DNA of 64,000 bases from Obelidium mucronatum (Eukaryota; Chytridiomycota; Chytridiomycetes; Chytridiales; Chytriomycetaceae), in contig JAIVFH010000071.1 in the NCBI GenBank assembly GCA_025765595.1, forward strand, positions 115,368-179,367. Reading direction: 5' to 3'. The position numbers and the translations under genes are program-made. A model generated the notes under the pieces. That model had not been told where the DNA came from, did not search any database, and saw only the letters and a program-made list of their open reading frames with translations. This document shows, piece by piece, positions 18,927 to 60,248 of the stretch; within the stretch, counting starts at the first letter, position 1; each line of letters opens with the position of its first letter.

Positions 18927-19264
18927 TGTATTTTATTTTTAATGGAAAAAAAAGAGACCTTGTTTCCTCTTATTTCTGATGCTACGCGTTTTTTTTTTCA
19001 CAACACAACGCCCCTTTCTTTCTCCTACCGCCGAAACGCGAAACCAATCCAAAAAATAAAAAATAAAAAATAAAAAAAAATAAAAACAAAAAAAAAACAA
19101 AAATAAATAAAAAAAAACACAAAGCCGCCTGCCGCTTTATAGCAACACAAATGAACGGATTCACTCAAACTACCCACGTGAAATGGTGAAAAATCTGCAC
19201 AGCAAAAAACACTTGCAAAAAATCGACGAGAACAGTTCCCGCAAAACTCCAACCAGTGTGTTAT

Positions 19265-19290
19265 CTACAGCAACGGAGGCGGCTCAGGTC
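19265..19290 (+). repeat. left terminal inverted repeat of the alpha-kinase transposon
   Basis: A 26-bp sequence starting CTACAGCAACGG and ending GGCTCAGGTC. It is the exact reverse complement of 22589-22614 and sits directly after the TTAT target duplication. Confidence 0.93.
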
Positions 19291-19345
19291 ACAAATAAAA
19301 TCTCCAAATTAAATTTTTTTGTCCCCCCAAAAAAAGGACCAACAA

Positions 19346-20949
19346 ATGTCAGTGGAGAGTCGTCTTCTTGAGCTCAAGGCTCTAAGAGACAAAAATATTA
19401 TTGATGAATCCGATTTTAAGGAACAGAAAGCTGCCATTCTGGCACAGGCTTTTGGGAGCTCAAGCGGTACAACACAAGGTACAGAAACACTGACACTGTA
19501 AGTGTTCATGACATTATTACACCACAACAGAGACGACTCTTTTGATGGACTTTCGAAACAAATACAGACTCAAGCCAGCAAGCAACAGAGCGGAAATGAT
19601 CCAGCAGCATGTGAATGCAGCAGTGAGAACATCCAGCTCTGCTAGGGCTGGAAACCCTCCATCAAAAACCAAGATAACCTTCATATTCAAGATTCATGAT
19701 AAGAAACCTGGCCCATCTGGAATAATGGATCATGTAGGGCTTTTTATTACTTCTGACTTTCGACAATGATCCTGATGTCAAAACTACAGCTTATCCTCTT
19801 TGATTCTGATGCCACCGTCGATGAAGTAAAGCAAGCCGCTTTCAATCACTTCAAATCAGAAGCAATGAATCGAGCGGATTTGGCAAAGTATGGTGTTCCA
19901 AAGCCGGAAGCTTGTTTTCTGACGGCATTCAATGGTTACACTCAAGATTTGTCCACATTTTGAAACGCCCGAGAATTAGCTGATACATTCAAGGCGTCAA
20001 AACGTGGAGCCGAAGGCAAAATGGGTTTTGTTTTTGACGTCAGCAAGCAAGAAAGTCTCAGAACCCTGTACTCCACCTCAAAAAGGGCTCGTGAAGATGT
20101 TGTATGGGTGTCATGTCGCTCTTATGACTTAAGTGTGTGTAAATTGGACTTCGAGGAGTGTGAATTTGAGGAAAAGACCCGAAACATCTCCATTGATCCA
20201 AAATCATTGGCCAAAGGTTCCGCAAGAGTGGCACACCCCTGTCAAGTTCAAGGTAGTGTTTTTGATTTGTCATCTCTTATAATTACTGAAACAGTCAAAG
20301 GCAGGGCTATCGATCTTGTTGCCAAAATTTACAAGGATCACGGTCAAAATACGAAGTATGTCCATCAATCAGATGCACAATGCTTGTGGGTTGCAAATCA
20401 GAGCTGGGTTGCGTTCTTAGAGCATGCCCGCACATGTGCAGATCAGGGACAGTCAGGAGCAGGTGATATTCTTGAAGCCATGGATGGGGTTTCTTTCGTG
20501 GATGGGAGTGTTTATGAATTGGAGGGCAGCTACTCGTTCCCTGTCGTTTTTGTGGAGCCTTGTATCCCTGGCACTTTCACAAAGTACCAAAGCAACGCCA
20601 AGTTTGGCCAGCAAACAACAGCAGCTCAAATCATGGATTGTTTTTCGCATTATAGTTGGACTCATTCTGACAAAAAGTACATGGTTGCTGACTTGCAAGG
20701 TGATAGCTTTTGATTTCTGCTTTTATCACTCTCCTGATTAAAACAATTGCTATCATTTTAGGCAATTTAAACGCAAAAATGTTGACAGATCCCCAAATAC
20801 ACTGCGAAGAGTTCGATTTTTCGCTGGGAAACTTGGGGGCGGATGGGATCAAAGACTTCTTCAAGCAACACAAATGTGGAAGTTATTGTGACGCGCTGGA
20901 TATTCAAAATAATCGTCCAGAAGATGATGATGAAGATGAAGAAAAGTAA
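19346..20949 (+). CDS. alpha-kinase (atypical Ser/Thr kinase), transposon cargo; one in-frame TGA
   Basis: The start is MSVESRLLELKALRDKNIID, a short SHOCT-like helical segment. Two introns are inferred: a 52-bp one after GSSSGTTQ, and a 59-bp one joining GPSGIMDH to LILFDSDATVDEV. A third (20701-20761) splits the DLQG motif. The C-terminal half is a clear alpha-kinase domain: SFPVVFVEPCIPGTFTKYQS, then SHYSWTHSDKKYMVADLQGN, LTDPQIHC and FFKQHKCGSYCDALDI. The last two supply the zinc-holding His, His-x-Cys and Cys of EF2-kinase/MHCK/TRPM7 relatives. An in-frame TGA at 19961-19963 separates the N-terminal part from the kinase part, which continues in the same frame (NARELADTFKASKRG), so this copy may be recently dead. 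It lies inside the transposon. Confidence 0.8.
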
Positions 20950-20960
20950 ATTGATTTATT

Positions 20961-22527
20961 TCAAATAGCAAGAATAAAGTCCTTCATTTTATACACGGTG
21001 TCCCAGGCATTCTGAATTGTGACTTTTGGACGTCCAATACGGGTAAAAGCAACATCCAAAGCTCTTCGCGCATCCATTGGAATGAAGTCGTCTATAAACG
21101 GCTCCTGTCGCAACTGCAATATTGCATCATCAACCCACTGCATGTGGGAAACTGCAGTGCCACAGTTGATTCCCCCAAAGTGCCGTGGGCAAGAGTAGCA
21201 CAAATGAGGTGCAACGTTTGGTAGAAGACAATGTCTTTGTGTTCGTCGATTCTATGTGGTTTTAGGCAAAAAAGGACGAGATAAAGAGGCTTACATTGTG
21301 GTTGACATGTTCGGCATAAGAATCCAGCAACTCTTGAACAACCGGAATCCAAATATACAAGAATATGATCCTATTTTATTGTTAGTGATTAAAACAAGGA
21401 CATCCTATATTTCACACTTGTCCATTTCGTCCGTTTCATCAAAGAGCTCCGTTTGATTGAATCCAGCTTCCAGTATTTCCGCAAGCAGATAGCCCTTAGA
21501 ACGGAGCCATCTTGTCCAAGCTGACTCTATCTTTGTGTTTCGAGTTGATGGAACAAAGCGGTGCACAGATTCAATATTGAAGCCTGTTTCGTGAATCTCG
21601 TGGAACGCAGCCTGCATGGCTGCAACATCAACAGTTTCTGTGCCGAAATCCGATCCAGTTGACATCGGAAATACTGATAGTATAGCGACTGGAAGTAAGA
21701 TATTGGAATAATATATTGTATTCAAACAGACATACCTTTGTGATTTTTCACCGCTTCCAAATAATAAAGCAACACAATGCGTGGATCATTGTTTGAAGTT
21801 GAAACACGCAGTCATATCCATTTCCCGCTCCAAAAGTCCTTGCAACCATGAATAGCCAAAAAGTACTTTTTCAACTTGTCGTGACCATCAAAAGCCCATC
21901 TCTCGTTGGGTCCCACTGACCATGCATATCTGCGTCCAAGTTTGTGTTTCTTTCGGTCAGCAACTCCATTTGGGTCAATTTCCTTCAAGAGCATCGAGAC
22001 GTGATCCCTAAATAAACAGTATATCAACCACCGAAGACCACATTAAAAATCTCACTCTTTCGCCATAATTTGGTGCTTTTCTCGAAGAACCCGTGTCATT
22101 TCGCGATATCCAAGACGTTGGTTTTCCCCTTGCAGCTCTTCAACGATTGCACTAATCACTTTGGCTTCTTGTACATCTTCTCCAACATGCTTGTACTCCG
22201 CCGTGCTCCGTTTTAGGCCCCAAGCCGCTAGACGGCGTTTTATTGTTGCTTTACTTATTGGTTTTATGTAGTGTGTCAGTTACGCTTTGTCCGAACTCAA
22301 AAGAACATCACTTACGAAACATTGAATCCATGATAATCCTTCATGTACATAACAATTTCATCATTCGAGCGCCCTTTCCAAAAGTATGATTCAATCAGTG
22401 GCCTTAGTTCGCTGTCGGAAGGAACGGGCTTGTGTTGGTTTCCAAAAAAGGGTCTCGACGTTGTACCCACGTTTTCGAAGCTGCTGCTGTTCGCGTCAAC
22501 GCGATTGTCGAAAACGGGTGAGAGCAT
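20961..22527 (-). CDS. integrase-core transposase with N-terminal helix-turn-helix
   Basis: A multi-exon gene whose introns include ones near 22040-22015 and 21740. The N-terminal part (LRPLIESYFWKGRSNDEIVM, then FNVSKATIKRRLAAWGLKRS) is a homeodomain-like DNA-binding helix-turn-helix. The catalytic core has GRRYAWSVGPNERWAFDGHD, IHGCKDFW, VSTSNNDPRIVLLYYLEAV and DFGTETVDVAAMQAAF. The first aspartate is probably in AFDGHD and the second in SDFGTET; the glutamate is not pinned down. This is the integrase fold used by Ginger transposons and related fungal and fish integrase-core genes. The exon holding ELLDSYAEHVNHN near 21290 may contain a frameshift. The C-terminal exon (HFGGINCGTAVSHMQWVDDA) ends at 20961. 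Confidence 0.75.
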
Positions 22528-22588
22528 TGGGTGGTGACAGTTGGTGCAAGTTGTTGTATGTTGTAGAACAAAGGAAAATATTTTTTTA

Positions 22589-22614
22589 GACCTGAGCCGC
22601 CTCCGTTGCTGTAG
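22589..22614 (-). repeat. right terminal inverted repeat of the alpha-kinase transposon
   Basis: The exact inverse partner of 19265-19290, directly followed by the second TTAT copy at 22615-22618. Confidence 0.93.
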
Positions 22615-22977
22615 TTATCTGTTGATGATTTTCAAAAACTTGATACTGAAGAAACAGAAAAACTAACCGTCGGAACCAAGGAAGTGACCAAAAAAGCAAA
22701 GAAACAGAGTATTCCAGGAAACAACAACAATGCCACAACACCTGCCAACTCTGTTCAACAAGCTGGAATGAACTTGTTGGCAATTAAACCATCGTTGTCT
22801 AAAAAGATCAATTATGATGTGATTGGTTTTTTGGAGGGTGTTGTTTCTTGTTGTCCTCCGTCGGCTTGACTCTGTCAATTCCCCGCGTTCTTTTAATTTC
22901 AAACTTTAAAAAAATATCCATGAAAAGTTGAGTAAACTGGTGCCATATTTGTATTTGGGAACAGCAACGATTTTTAT

Positions 22978-25243
22978 TTACATTCTAGTTTGTGCTGCTT
23001 TGTCTTTCCACATTTTCGCAACGCCTGCGTTCTTGGTAACACCAAGGCCTTTTTCGTACATGACACCTAATCGTGTTTGTGCAATTGCAAATCCTTGATT
23101 GGCAGCAAAAGTGTACAATTCAACGGCTTTCCTGAAGTTTAGGGCAACTCCTTCGCCATGCTCATACATGAGCCCCAAGTTGTATTGCGCTCTTGCGTCT
23201 CCTTGGTTTGCAGCGAGAGTGAACCATTCCACTGCTTTTGAGCTGTCTTGGGCAACTCCTCTGCCGTTTTCATACATGACACCCAGCTCTGCTTGTGCAA
23301 TTGGGAATTCTTGATTGGCAGCAAGAGTGTACAATTGAAAGGCTTTTCTGTAGTTAAGGGCAACTCCTTGACCATTCTCGTACATGAGTCCCAAGTTATA
23401 CCGCGCTCTTGCATGCGCTTGGTTGGAAGCAAGAGTGTACCACTCCAGAGCTTTGGAATAGTCCTGGGCCACACCTTTGCCGTTGTTGTACATGAAACCC
23501 AAGTTGCATTGCCCTTCTGCGTCTCCTTGGTTGGCAGCGAGAGTGAACCATTCCACCGCTTTTGAGTTGTCTTGGGCAACTCCTCGCCCGTTTGCATACA
23601 TGAACCCTAACTGTGCTTGTGCAATTGCAAACCCTTGATTGGCAGCAAGAGTGTACAATTCAACTGCTTTCTTGTAGCTTACAGCAACTCCTCGGCCATT
23701 TTCGTACATGAGCCCCAAGTTGAGTTGTGCTTTTGCGTGGGCTTGGTTGGAAGCAAGAGTATACCACTCCAGAGCTTTGGAATAGTCCTGGGCCACACCT
23801 TTGCCGTTGTTGTACATGAAACCCAAGTTGCATTGCCCTTCTGCGTCTCCTTGGTTGGCAGCAAGAGTGTACCATTCCACTGCTTTGGTATAGTTTTGCA
23901 CAACTCCTTGTCCGTGGTAGTACCTGTCTCCCAAACTGTTTTGCTCATTTGCATCTCCTTGATAGCCAGCAAGTTTGGGTGATTTTGATCCAGCTGGCTG
24001 GACTTTGAGTTGCTTTGACAGAATATCCGCACTCGCTGCCTGGCCACCAGGGGATTCAACAAGAATCGTATCAGAAAAAGAGGGCCTAGTATCCTCGCCA
24101 CCGGCCGCCGGTATAGATGTTTCAACGAGAGTTGTCTCAGTCTTATCCTTGGACAACGGAGATGCCCTTGCTGGGACATTGGGCGATACCGATAGAGCTG
24201 CGATTGACTCAGACAGAGAGAACGATCGGGGTCCGATATTTGGTAAATCTGCGTGCTCCAAGATGGTCTTGACAATCTCTTCAAAGGACGGCCGTTTAGT
24301 TGGGTCTTGGTCCCAGCAGGCTTGAATCAATGACCACTCCCACGAATCCTCAGGAATATGGTCCGGCTGGCTTTCCGGTCGTTCGCCGTCTTTAACCCAT
24401 GTTGAAATCATCTCTGGAAATTGAGCGTCGTCAAATGGTTGAACTTGTGAAAGAATCTCATAGACGATCATGGCAAAGGAGTAGACATCGTAAGCCGTGG
24501 TGGCCTGGTACTTTCGGCCAAACGATTCAGGTGGAGAGTATCGGATTGGTCCATGCGCTTGGCGAGAGAAGGTATGGGAAGCTAGGAGACAACGAGAAAT
24601 GCCAAAGTCCGTAATCTTCGCAAAGCCATCATAACCTACAGTACAACGGAAGAAACAGTGTCAAAAATGAAGTAACAAGAACCCCACCTCAAAATCACCT
24701 ACCAATCAGCACATTACGCGGATTCAAGTCAGCGTGAATAACCGGGTTCTTTTGGGCATGAAGGTACTTGAACGCCTGGGCAATCTGTAAAATCCAGCGC
24801 AACTTTATCTCCCGAGACACTGGCTCCTCCCCTTTCCAACAATAAAGACGACTGATGAGACTTGTTTCAGCACGTTCAATGATCAACATTGGATTGCCCT
24901 GTTCATCGACACTCACCCCGTAGAGCGGAGTGATATTGGGATGTCTCAGGGTGTGCCAGAGGGTAGCTTCGCTCTTGGCCATCTTGACGGCTTTGGGATC
25001 ATCAAGTCCCGTGATGGTCTTGATTGCGACAGGGATGGTTCCGTAGTAGCCAGTGTAAACCTCACCGAAGCCTCCTTTTCCAAGCGGCTGGTTCTTGTTG
25101 ATTGTGACGTCAGCGACTGGAATAAACCACACGTTGTCTTTGTACGCATCGGTCACTGTGAATGCAATTACGGATAGGGAAGGAGTTAGAAAGGCGTGAG
25201 GGAAGGGGCGGCAAGAGACACTCACTCTTGACTCTTTTTTCAT
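22978..25243 (-). CDS. TKL-like protein kinase with nine Sel1 repeats
   Basis: Two exons (24703-25243 and 22978-24635) give about 730 residues. The kinase domain shows GKGGFGEVYTGYYG, the ATP lysine in VAIKT, the catalytic loop HADLNPRNVL (Arg of HRD replaced by Ala), TDFG of the activation segment and APE-like SPPES. After a linker come nine Sel1/TPR-like repeats of 36 residues, each like ANQGDAEGQCNLGFMYNNGKG, a scaffold for protein binding. Kinase-Sel1 fusions are abundant in Mucoromycota and some chytrids and are probably signalling proteins. The start is uncertain: GTGAGT soon after the first ATG and a good acceptor at about 25160 suggest a possible upstream exon. Repeat units were recently duplicated (see findings). 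Confidence 0.85.
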
Positions 25244-53965: not shown

Positions 53966-55881
53966 ATGTCAGGAATTTTCCTATTGCTCCAGAACTTCCT
54001 CTACGACAGTGATGATAGCAGCGGGAGTGAGCAAGTTACTACTAGCTATTCTGGACCGCCAATCAATCCCATGGCTTCATGGATACATGATCTAGGGTCA
54101 GCTGATTGCCGTGGGCTCCGAGGGGAGGATCAAGAGAAGGCCATTCAATGGCGTGAACAGATATTCAACCCTGAGATCTACAGCTCTGAGGAGTTCTGTT
54201 GTGAGTTTTGAATCACCCGAGCCACCTTCGACTTTATCTTGGCACACATATCCACCAGCCTTGACAAGGGTCCTGATGATGATCCCAGAGGAAAACCACG
54301 TTCACCTGCGCGCGATCAGTTTGCTATGTTTATCTACTACGTTGCTACAGGTGATGCTTTGCGCTTAATTGCCCATATGTTCAGGTTCGGTGAGACCACC
54401 TGTGGGGATTCTGTTCGACAAGTAACTGCTGCTATTCCCGCATTTCATCGCATTGCCCAAGACTCATGAAGATTGGGAGCTTGTTGCAGCTGGGTTTGCA
54501 AGTCTAGCTGGGATGCCGAATGTTGGAGGTGCAGTTGATGGCTGCTACATACCATGCAAGGCACCCTCAGAGAGACCAAATCATCCTGGTGGACCATACA
54601 TGAAGAAGGACTTCTATTGTCACAAGGGGTTCTACTCCCACCTCTTGATGGCAGTCTGTGATGCTACAGGGAAATTTATCTTCATTGACGTAGGCAATCC
54701 AGGTGGCTGCTCTGATTCCACAGTCTATGAAAGGAGCGAACTTGGCAGCAATGTGGATACTCTTGTACCTTGTCATGTGGTCTTTTTGGGAGACAAGATC
54801 TTTGTCAACAAGGAGCATATGATCACACCATTCAAAAACATTGCTGGCCATGAACGGGATCATCGCTGGTGGAGATACTGCAAGCGCCACTGCCAGACAC
54901 AAGTGCCAATTGAAAATGCGTTTGGGCAGCTGAAGATTGCAGGTTGCTTGTCAACCTGTCATGTTAAAGGGGAGTTTGAGGGGGTTGGAGGCCAATTCCT
55001 TGTAGTTCTATTTATAGAAAAGTTGTCACTGTCTTGTTGAAATATTTAAGGGTTAATAAGGGGTTTCTTAATAGTTCTATTTTTCGAAATGGATACGTTC
55101 AAGCTGATATTTCCCTGACAATTCAAGGAAAACTGACATGGAAACAAAGTCACTCCATGTTCCATCAATCACTCAACTGTCTCAAGAAGGGCATCTTGAC
55201 CTGAGTGATCATGTTTTACATGTTTGAGTTTCCGGCTGTCCTGTCAGAAAATTAATGCTATATAAGCAGCCCCAATTGCAAGCATGATAAGAATCTGTCA
55301 GCAGTGCTGTTGGTGAAGCTGTTTATGGTGAAGCTGTTTAGGTGGTTGGTTAAAAATAGTTTCTTTTGGAAACAAAGAAGACAGCCGCTTTAAATTTCTA
55401 AAAAAAAAAGCCACTTTCTTGCAATATTATAAGGTTTTAAAATAAAACCTTTGCAATCCCAGTTCTGCTTTCAGGTGTTGAAATACCCTTATTTCTCTGG
55501 ATTTGCAACCTGCACTGCGAAGAAGCAAAGTGACTGAGAGAATGTCTAGTGAGATTCTGCCTCATGAAAGATGCGATGCATGCTGAAACAAGAGCTCTCC
55601 CAAACCTGATCCATGTTTGCTGCATTCTACACAACATCTGTGCGGCGCGAAACAATCCTTTGGAGCAGGAGGAGTTGGAAGATTTTATTGCACGTGAAAG
55701 GGAGGGAAATGAGGAGAATATGGAAGCAGAGTTGATGCACATGGCTGAGGATGATCCTTTGAATGAGCAATTCTTACTCCAAATGCATCCTATCTTTGAT
55801 TTGGATGTTGCACAGCTTTGCAATGACTATGAGGCTCGATCTCTTCTCCATGGATGTTGCAATGCGGTCTTGGTAGTCTAG
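53966..55881 (+). pseudogene. PIF/Harbinger transposase (DDE_Tnp_4), broken
   Basis: The DDE nuclease of a Harbinger transposon. Family motifs in order: IYSSEEFCCEF; FAMFIYYVATGDALRLIAHM; VGGAVDGCYIPCKAPSERPN (first Asp); GNPGGCSDSTVYERSELGSN (second Asp); VPIENAFGQLK (Glu); then, after an insertion, LMKDAMHAETRALPNLIHVC and CILHNICA. Three lesions are visible. A TGA at 54209-54211 stands where relatives have Arg (a CGA-to-TGA change is inferred). There is a one-base frameshift near 54450, before LPKTHEDWELV. Helitron-like copy C sits at 54937-55549. Precise removal of that insertion restores the frame across the Glu motif. The 3' end overlaps the convergent Myb-like gene. Confidence 0.88.
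54937..55549 (+). mobile_element. Helitron-like element, copy C, inside Harbinger transposase
   Basis: 613 bp, TTGCAGGTTGC...TGTCTAG. The flanks GGGCAGCTGAAGA and TGAGATTCTGCC join without duplication between A and T, and the join keeps the transposase frame. The 3' end has the slightly divergent ACTGAGAGAATGTCTAG. Confidence 0.88.
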
Positions 55882-58060: not shown

Positions 58061-60248
58061 TTATTCATCCTCTTCTTCCTCATCCCCCTCTTCTTCCTCA
58101 TCCCCTTCCACTCCTTCACCATCATCTTTGTTGGCGTCTTCATCATCTTCCTCGTCATCCTTTTCTTGTTGTTCCCCCTCCGCTTCCATTTTGTCTTCGC
58201 TTTCGTTTCTAATAACTCTTTTCTTCTTTGAAATTCTGCTCTGGATGTCGGCGTTTCTCAAGTCTGCGAGACACCACATAATGAAATCCGCTTGGACAGG
58301 CTCGTGGAAGCGAATCAGGTGAGCGGTTTGATCGAACCACTTGGCACACTGTTCTGCCGCGGACATGTTAAACCTTCCCTTTCCATTTGCAGGCCCTCCG
58401 GACGTCAATTCCTTGAATTTTGCTGGATCGCAATGCTGTGTACAGAAGTTGTCCCTGTGCATCCGAAAGTGGAACCTGTCAACCACAAAAGTAACAGTCT
58501 TGTACAAGAACCTGATTCCAACAAAGATCGGTGGTAAGTATAAGAACAGAACACTATATAATGAAAAGAGCGCGTAATAATAAATAAGTAAGTGCACCTT
58601 TCATATATTGCGAATTTTCCTGCTACGTGTCGGGCGCGTAGGGATTGGAGCAAGCAGCAGGCTCTATCGTAGAAAACAAAGGTCGGTACTTCGCCCATTC
58701 GCGCAAAACAGTGGCATAAGAAGCGAGAAATAAAGGTAGAAGATTCAAAAGAGTACATCTTAGATATTCCAATGATCATGCCGCAGCTCCACACAGCCAT
58801 AAATATTCCAGGCAGGAACCGCTGCTTCAGACTGTACTTGAACCACTGATCCGCTACTAACTCTTTTTCTTGTGTATCAATATGCACTGTAGATGTTCGC
58901 GTTTTCTTGGACTTTCGTGTAGCTTTAAAGTCCTTGTTCCACTGTTTCCCAATGATTTCCTGGACAGTCGTGTTGTGAGAGCTGAGTCCGCAGGTACTCA
59001 AAACAGTGTCTGTCTTTTTTGCCTTGCAGCCAGAGATGATGCACTCATTCCTCAGCTGGGCATGCTGATGAGCAGAACAATGTGTTCACACCAAGAATAG
59101 GCAACACACAGCCAGGCACAGAACACAAGAGATGCCCCATGACTTTCCCATCCATTACACTGCCAGAGATTTCTTTTCCATTGTAAAACTGGTGGCACCC
59201 GTTGCAGCGGTGACACCATTTCTTGCTAAAGTAATCAGTCATGAACGTGACGTATTCCCGCATTCGCGGGCCTGATGTCATGAATAGAATCACCTGTTTT
59301 TGGTAAGTATGGACCCAGAAACAGGGAGTTGCTCCACACATGTGTTGTTTTGGGGGCCCAGGAAGGTCTGAAGTGAGTGAACCGCATATGTTCATAGTCA
59401 TCATTGGCAGGGATCTTGGAGATGTACTGCTGCAGTAGTAGCATGTGATACACGTAAAATCCTCGTTTGAAGATCACTGCGCTGTCTGGATCAGGCACTT
59501 TGATGGTTGGGAAGGCCAGTGAATATGTGCGCTGCTCACGATACAGCTTCACCCTATGTGCGAGGCATGAGTAAATAAGCAATATAGTATTTAACATGCA
59601 AGAAAATACCAACAGAAGGCCAGATGGCAGGTGCTTTAGCCAGAGATCCGCAAAAGGTGTGGTGACGTAGTACTGCTCATTGATCTTGAGGAAGCCAACT
59701 GACAGGATTGTTTCAAGCGGATACATCTCTATCAACTGCTTCTGTTTGTCTTCGCTCATGTACGCGACAGAATCCACATTGTTCCACATGCAGCATTTAG
59801 TGCAGTTGCCCTTGAACAGCAACACTTGGTATGGGCCTTCCATCCCCAACACCACTACTTGTGTGCTGCTGAAAGTCAAGTTTTCGGTGCACCTGTGGCA
59901 TTGCAAGAATGGAGCCACAAGGACAGATAGCTGGACAGATGCCTGGGCACTGGAATACTCTGTCAGCCAAGGTAAATACTTTTTCATTGGTCAAGGAAAA
60001 CTGCTTGGAGATGTGATCACAGATGGCCCTCATGCAGTTGTTGTTGTCATATAGTTTGACTGCGGACTTGTACCTATGTAGGAATGGCCCAGCACAACTA
60101 CCGCTCTTGCTTCATCTATGAAGGACATGTTGGTTGTTTTTACTTTTGTTGTTCTGTGCATTCCAGAATGCCACCATTCTTTGCAACTCATTTTTGATAA
60201 GTTTGGGTTCAGCCTGATGGGGAAAACCAACCAATTCAGTGGATTCAA
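58061..60248 (-). CDS. KDZ-type transposase with CxC5 and CxC6 zinc clusters
   Basis: Multi-exon minus-strand gene of the KDZ (Kyakuja-Dileera-Zisupton) transposon class known from fungi. The order is as in the family. First a CxC5-like cluster (QCHRCTENLTFSSTQVVVLG, NCTKCCMWNN). Then a helical part (VKLYREQRTYSLAFPTIKVP; intron in phase after HLPSGL). Then a CxC6-like cluster (CHRCNGCHQFYNG, VMDGKVMGHLLCSVPGC, LFCSSACPAEE, STCGLSSHNTTVQE). The catalytic region has FARMGEVPTFVFYDRACCLL, VDRFHFRMHRDNFCTQHCDP and NMSAAEQCAKWFDQTAHLIR with FIMWCLADLRN. A long Glu/Asp tail ends it. Most of the core is open apart from introns. The 5' exon junctions near 59,970-60,110 need a frame change that I could not resolve, so damage there is possible. 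Confidence 0.78.

Follow-up and report, generated by a model that had tools for sequence, protein, structure and literature searches.

A probable decayed IS3EU-type transposon carrying an alpha-kinase gene in the chytrid Obelidium mucronatum

A 64,000-nucleotide stretch of the genome of Obelidium mucronatum (Chytridiomycota), hereafter the window, contains a 3.35-kb DNA transposon (positions 19266-22613; Table 1) in which an alpha-kinase gene and a putative transposase gene are read inward from opposite ends. The element begins and ends with TA (TACAGC...GCTGTA), is bounded by perfect inverted repeats of 25 bp (TACAGCAACGGAGGCGGCTCAGGTC), and is flanked by a target duplication of 6 bp, GTTATC; six identical bases have a chance of about 2.6e-4 per element. 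With flank bases counted in, the repeats can be compared over 40 nt at 88% identity. An earlier machine-made annotation of this DNA (the original prediction) had recognised the perfect inverted repeat at this place but gave it 26 bp and read the duplication as the 4-bp TTAT. The apparent 26th base (the outer C/G) is due to the first G and the last C of GTTATC, and it belongs to the duplication.

The plus-strand gene was modelled with four exons, separated by GT-AG introns of 52-62 nt, and encodes 477 residues, exon borders in both genes having been placed by eye from GT-AG signals and reading frame. The alpha-kinase domain that had been predicted on this strand was found at the C-terminus (PF02816, 127.8 bits against a cut-off of 21.3, E 6.7e-37), and the N-terminus has a weak, sub-cut-off match to SHOCT. 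The minus-strand gene (six exons, introns of 43-62 nt, 439 residues) agrees with the predicted integrase-core transposase: within the first 228 residues of the model, to which the Pfam scores refer, rva_4 (PF24764) reached 26.2 bits against a cut-off of 26 (E 7.4e-6), Clr5 was matched (E 7.1e-9), and HTH_21, which we take to be the IS3-type helix-turn-helix, stayed below its cut-off (21.2 of 28.1 bits). P0008, a relative of this transposase on an 11.6-kb contig of Blyttiomyces, scored 49.9 bits with rva_4, well above the cut-off. As predicted, the genes converge with 11 bp between their stops (20949 and 20961) and start near the termini, at 80 bp (19346) and 86 bp (22527). Each is interrupted by one in-frame TGA, at codon 170 of 477 in the kinase and at codon 202 of 439 in the transposase. 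The NCBI models bypass these codons, the kinase model P0001 starting downstream of the first and the transposase model P0006 omitting the stretch around the second. Because relatives encode an amino acid at both positions, the window copy is probably inactive.

Table 1. Features of the element in the window
Feature	Position	Strand	Basis
Target duplication GTTATC, left copy	19260..19265		sequence comparison
Left terminal inverted repeat, 25 bp perfect	19266..19290	+	sequence comparison
Alpha-kinase exon 1, weak SHOCT-like match	19346..19478	+	gene model, Pfam
Alpha-kinase exon 2	19531..19733	+	gene model
Alpha-kinase exon 3, in-frame TGA 19961-19963	19790..20699	+	gene model
Alpha-kinase exon 4, kinase domain end and stop codon	20762..20949	+	gene model, Pfam
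Transposase exon 6, stop codon	20961..21251	-	gene model
Transposase exon 5	21295..21370	-	gene model
Transposase exon 4, second D and E taken as catalytic	21418..21688	-	alignment, gene model
Transposase exon 3, first D taken as catalytic, in-frame TGA 21812-21814	21736..22007	-	alignment, gene model
Transposase exon 2	22056..22253	-	gene model
Transposase exon 1, start codon, most of Clr5 match	22316..22527	-	gene model, Pfam
Right terminal inverted repeat, 25 bp perfect	22589..22613	-	sequence comparison
Target duplication GTTATC, right copy	22614..22619		sequence comparison

The size of the duplication was settled with other elements of the genome, which are designated here by contig (C71 being that of the window). 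The three that could be read at both ends, C96 (GATGAC), C367 (CACTGG) and C22 (CTTTTT), all have TA..TA termini and perfect 6-bp duplications, not TTAT-like 4-bp ones, so that four of four readable elements agree. CTTTTT is incompatible with a 4-bp duplication and one more repeat base, and together with C96 and C367 it fixes the 6-bp reading. The flanks of the window element, joined after removal of the element and one duplication, are identical for 4 or 6 bp and are thus uninformative on size. Joined in this way (19183-19265 and 22620-22869), they form a 110-codon open frame that the insertion has split, with a sub-cut-off BRF1-like match (23.8 bits against 25). A search of the same genome for an empty insertion site found none, but only the two flanks and two partial copies, C122 and C40; these are longer places similar to the flank frame, each of which matches one side without spanning the insertion point.

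Relatives of the window element's own family are fragmentary. C126 matches at 94% identity from the left end through most of the kinase gene and then breaks off; C66 has a similar stretch at 91% that begins just inside the repeat and is split by an insertion; and P0002, on a contig of 7,187 bp, is a truncated kinase resembling that of C126. About 52 bp of the left end are present on C394 and C8, which are near-identical to each other over 9.5 kb. A pattern search of the genome with the terminal repeat gave 6 matches in its strict form against 0 for the control, and 21 against 9 in a looser form, whose 3-mismatch matches are therefore mostly background. C1 and C255 (L019:2629-5739 and L020) have nearly the terminal repeat of the window element, rva_4 matches and a convergent RING-like frame (sub-cut-off); no alpha-kinase match and no right end were found there, and two C1 frames submitted singly to Pfam gave no match. 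Identity within the contig pairs C394/C8 and C1/C255 is 98-99% over several kilobases; some regions may therefore be represented by both haplotypes, and the locus counts may be too high.

The combination of transposase and kinase recurs in related families. At C96, a transposase 60% identical and a convergent alpha-kinase 33% identical (in alignments) to those of the window lie together between 56-bp repeats at 91% identity, with the terminus TACGG and repeats of the same type as those of the window (TACGGCAACGGAGG.. compared with TACAGCAACGGAGG..). Approximately 6.3 kb between the C96 kinase and the right end, whose frames were read as a putative copia-like element, are missing from a second copy at C165, where the contig ends 128 bp beyond the kinase match. 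The other half of the C96 family is present at the start of contig C280; because the flanks of C280 and C165 do not match, each was treated as a copy of its own or as a decayed end. C81 and C15 each carry a 592-residue alpha-kinase (P0003 type) that converges with a related transposase, 4.1 and 6.5 kb away, respectively; C441 has a kinase of this type 3.8 kb from the contig start, which leaves too little room for a transposase at these distances. At C240, a transposase with a cysteine-rich N-terminus is followed by a similarly oriented frame for a TET/JBP dioxygenase (L054:6227-7027; PF12851 at 34.9 bits, exactly the cut-off, and 35.5 in a second scan) and by a convergent alpha-kinase. The C81-type kinase also has a cysteine-rich N-terminus; both such regions were recognised by eye and have no Pfam match. 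Eight weaker TET-like matches, all below the cut-off, are found elsewhere in the genome. Frames beside the C81 and C240 transposases (L055:9006-9500 and L054:2853-3458) look by eye like Ulp1/C48-type proteases and have no Pfam match.

A census of the 48.3-Mb genome gave at least 20 kinase matches in at least 14 alpha-kinase loci, of which five (C71, C96, C81, C15 and C240) have a related transposase within 10 kb, in convergent orientation in every case. From 14 kinase loci and 21 transposase loci (20 listed plus C240), about 0.12 such pairs would be expected by chance, and the Poisson probability of the five seen is 2e-7; for at least four pairs without the window it is 5e-6, and for at least three with C15 and C81 taken as one family it is 2e-4. 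These statistics are rough, because some of the loci are copies of others. Three further kinase loci (C165, C441 and C126) are copies of the same families, truncated or cut by contig ends. Thus, 8 of the at least 14 alpha-kinase loci are such elements or their cut or truncated copies, and the original proposal that elements of this kind could explain alpha-kinase expansions is supported for this genome. For the remaining six loci (C630, C49, C38, C13, C17 and C35), the transposase scans gave no match on the contig concerned, and C630, C49 and C13 are taken for ordinary host alpha-kinases on the basis of parts of their sequences. Kinase relics beyond the census were noted at C66, C295 and C99. 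Conversely, 4 of the 20 listed rva_4 loci are beside a kinase (C71, C96, C81 and C15:53752), and C21 has a transposase like that of C15 and no kinase match on its contig. With C21, C22 and C367, which have no kinase match, beside the kinase-bearing loci, the kinase is a recurrent but optional part.

By its termini, its duplication and its IS3-like DDE transposase, the element fits the IS3EU superfamily rather than the Ginger type first proposed; the transposase is IS3-like in its rva_4 and HTH_21 matches and in the presumed catalytic D, D and E, which are invariant in four transposases compared. For the IS3EU/GingerRoot superfamily, TA..TA termini, an IS3-like DDE transposase and, usually, duplications of 6 bp are described, in passages that mention no kinase (PMC10045372). 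The original prediction knew of no described element of this make-up, but kinase-carrying IS3EU elements are already in print, so the kind is known from late 2025. In the relevant sections of that report (Kojima 2025, PMC12730594), TET+ IS3EU families are given for seven rust species, with 6-bp duplications, and for Tuber indicum, and all have a TET/JBP gene between an oppositely oriented transposase and alpha-kinase. The window element shares with them the IS3EU type, the 6-bp duplication, TA..TA and the opposite gene orientation, the last being seen also at C96, C81, C15 and C240; C240 alone also shares a TET/JBP gene between the two, in transposase orientation, none being present in the window element (with its 11 bp between stops) or in the examined parts of the C96- and C81-type copies. 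It differs from the rust and Tuber elements in its chytrid host and its decay. The complete elements C22 and C367 of the same genome share TA..TA, the 6-bp duplication and a related transposase with the window element and differ in repeat sequence and in having no kinase match. Neither chytrids nor Obelidium appear in the main text of Kojima 2025, the abstract of which names only lineages of Basidiomycota and Ascomycota (PMC12730594). Four observations were not found in print, in a literature search made mostly by listings and without Repbase: the occurrence in Chytridiomycota, the compact form without TET, a chytrid TET+ example, and the supply of over half of the listed alpha-kinase loci by elements.

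The kinase was examined for signs of conserved function. Residues taken as catalytic or zinc-binding are invariant among four kinase groups, which have 21-33% identity to the window kinase; presumably they comprise the nucleotide-binding lysine and glutamate, two aspartates and three residues of the zinc site. Eleven chain sequences of solved alpha-kinases were matched by the NCBI model of the window kinase (E 8e-15 to 2e-7). The C-terminal half of the kinase domain aligns with those of myosin heavy chain kinase A, elongation factor 2 (EF2) kinase, a TRPM7-type channel kinase and ALPK1, which have other N-terminal regions; the kinase described here is carried by a transposon. AlphaFold models were too poor to use (predicted local distance difference test score 31 for the kinase and 42 for a related transposase), and PADLOC gave no match to the window kinase. 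The ratio of nonsynonymous to synonymous substitution rates (dN/dS) is 0.34 between the window and C66 kinases (30 synonymous and 41 nonsynonymous changes, 293 codons) and 1.04 between the window and C126 kinases (8.5 and 32.5, 385 codons), both comparisons being of disrupted copies with 3 and 5 stop-bearing codons skipped; the difference between these ratios suggests earlier constraint on the kinase of this family and late neutral decay. The C96 and C165 kinases differ by 1 and 1 changes over 148 codons and by 0 and 1 over 111, and the C22 and C367 transposases have a dN/dS of 1.38 over 172 codons; neither comparison gives a sign of constraint.

In a tree of 10 chosen transposases, the window groups with C96 (support 99/95) and then with a sequence of Blyttiomyces (98/97), and C240 groups with C81 (89/85, under the threshold) and then with C22 (100/100). 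In a tree of seven kinases, four element kinases lie on one side and three host-type kinases on the other at 85/90, under the threshold; branches are very long, with up to 8 changes per column, and the window and C96 kinases are not separated from the host-type kinases. Protein searches, in which approximately 8,000 candidates each were scored, found relatives of the kinase in Obelidium only (2 and 4 proteins) and six relatives of the transposase, including three from Obelidium and one from Blyttiomyces sp. JEL0837. Viral contigs had no relative of either protein. Among prokaryote genomes scanned with the transposases, one contig with a transposase was found in a bacterial bin (L059); it has no kinase match in its 6.5 kb, and we take it to come from a eukaryote.

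On this evidence the window holds, very probably, a decayed IS3EU-type DNA transposon whose DDE transposase and alpha-kinase genes both read inward from the ends, a judgement that covers identity and gene content and leaves the role of the kinase to be considered separately. It is supported by the inverted repeats and the duplication, the domain and solved-kinase matches, the convergent pairs (at C96 between repeats), the invariant residues of both proteins, the dN/dS between the window and C66 kinases, the TET/JBP gene at C240, placed as in rusts, and the cysteine-rich N-termini, and it bears out the earlier description of a cut-and-paste element with a built-in kinase. Several observations weigh against this reading: both genes are interrupted; the rva_4 score is barely at the cut-off; the dN/dS against C126 is near one; no second two-gene or intact copy of the window family was found in the genome among the matches listed, and no transposase half was seen at C126 or C66, which have the kinase half only; no ends were seen of the elements at C81, C15 and C240, where the pair is thus shown as neighbours and not as the contents of one repeat-bounded unit; the related elements C22 and C367 are complete yet have no match to a kinase, which shows movement as such to be possible without it; and rust elements have inverted repeats over 30 bp and ends of the form TAYGG..CCRTA (PMC12730594), compared with TACAG and 25 perfect bp in the window. 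At C96 the corresponding values are 56 bp at 91% identity and TACGG.

How the kinase came to be there is a further question, on which an alternative to one inherited ancestral kinase has a chance only a little short of even, namely that IS3EU lineages took up alpha-kinases independently, in the same place and orientation. The great divergence of the kinase groups, the grouping of kinase-free C22 with C240 and C81 at 100/100, and the failure of the long-branched kinase tree to part the window and C96 kinases from host-type kinases are all in its favour, and Kojima considers parallel capture of TET/JBP genes in similar positions possible, in the part of the paper concerned (PMC12730594). It is opposed by the same convergent order in five of five loci and by the position of the four element kinases apart from the three host-type kinases, albeit with support under the threshold, and loss in C22 and C367 is as simple as gain elsewhere.

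The possibility that the kinase serves the host, for example in translation through EF2 or in the cytoskeleton, with the element as its vehicle, is very improbable. EF2 kinase and myosin heavy chain kinase A are among the best solved matches, but separate host-type alpha-kinases without a transposase match exist at C630, C49 and C13, several element copies are decayed, and nothing follows the kinase domain of the window protein. EF2 kinase itself has a further helical part C-terminal of its kinase domain; because the domain ends the window protein, an EF2-kinase-like make-up is not favoured, though the translational role suggested in the original prediction may still apply.

Ginger1 and Ginger2 elements have a 4-bp duplication. 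A Ginger-type element would accommodate the TTAT on both sides and the integrase-like core, which is common to Ginger, but this reading is very unlikely and was rejected, since all four elements read at both ends have 6-bp duplications and TA..TA termini, features that define IS3EU in the passages concerned (PMC10045372). Least probable of all is that the kinase is a chance host-gene passenger of the window copy, a reading that draws on the lack of a second two-gene copy in the closest family among the matches listed but was rejected in view of C126 and C66, which carry kinase halves of this family, the convergent pairs at C81, C15 and C240, and above all C96, where both genes lie between related repeats. 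The original prediction had likewise denied that the kinase is a random passenger, and had named two findings that would count against its view: the kinase is not confined to this copy, and although the closest family yields, among the matches listed, no further copy in which the same repeats enclose both genes, related families carry the convergent pair.

By analogy with its family, the transposase of the IS3EU-type element would bind the terminal repeats through its N-terminal Clr5/HTH region, cut at TA and excise the element by the DDE pattern, with insertion through a 6-bp staggered cut. The kinase could assist in trans by phosphorylating a nuclear protein, which would be the transposase itself or a host factor of chromatin, silencing or repair, and this phosphorylation would help the element to move or to escape silencing. 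This role is offered tentatively, as a possibility that falls short of being probable. It is proposed because the catalytic residues are conserved across divergent elements while kinase-free elements have also moved, and because the protein stops with the kinase domain and has no counterpart of the C-terminal part of EF2 kinase. It is also proposed because the kinase accompanies TET/JBP at C240 and in the rust elements (PMC12730594).

Other features of the window include a protein kinase followed by nine Sel1 repeats, next to the transposon at 22978-25243 (minus strand), a fragment of a DDE_Tnp_4-type transposase, presumably Harbinger-like, at 54426-55040 (E 1.7e-18), and a weak, sub-cut-off match to CxC5, a KDZ-transposase-associated cysteine cluster, at 59235-59990 on the minus strand (E 0.0034).

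Kinase-carrying IS3EU elements, reported from Dikarya, thus occur in Chytridiomycota as well, and this suggests that the partnership is old or recurrent. In the broadest interpretation, which we consider possible though not the likelier outcome, the alpha-kinase would be an ancestral, selected part of an IS3EU lineage of fungi that predates the divergence of chytrids and Dikarya, acting in the nucleus in counter-silencing or transposition control, and such elements would then account for much of the alpha-kinase expansions of fungi, including those of rusts. With 8 of at least 14 loci in transposon families, some of the alpha-kinases counted in fungi may represent transposons and not genes of host signalling. 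For rusts, a high expansion of alpha-kinases is described in the passage concerned (PMC4469406), and such elements may be part of its explanation. A kinase encoded by a transposon, and adjacent to TET/JBP at C240, offers a testable case in which an element would use phosphorylation to act on host chromatin or its own transposase.

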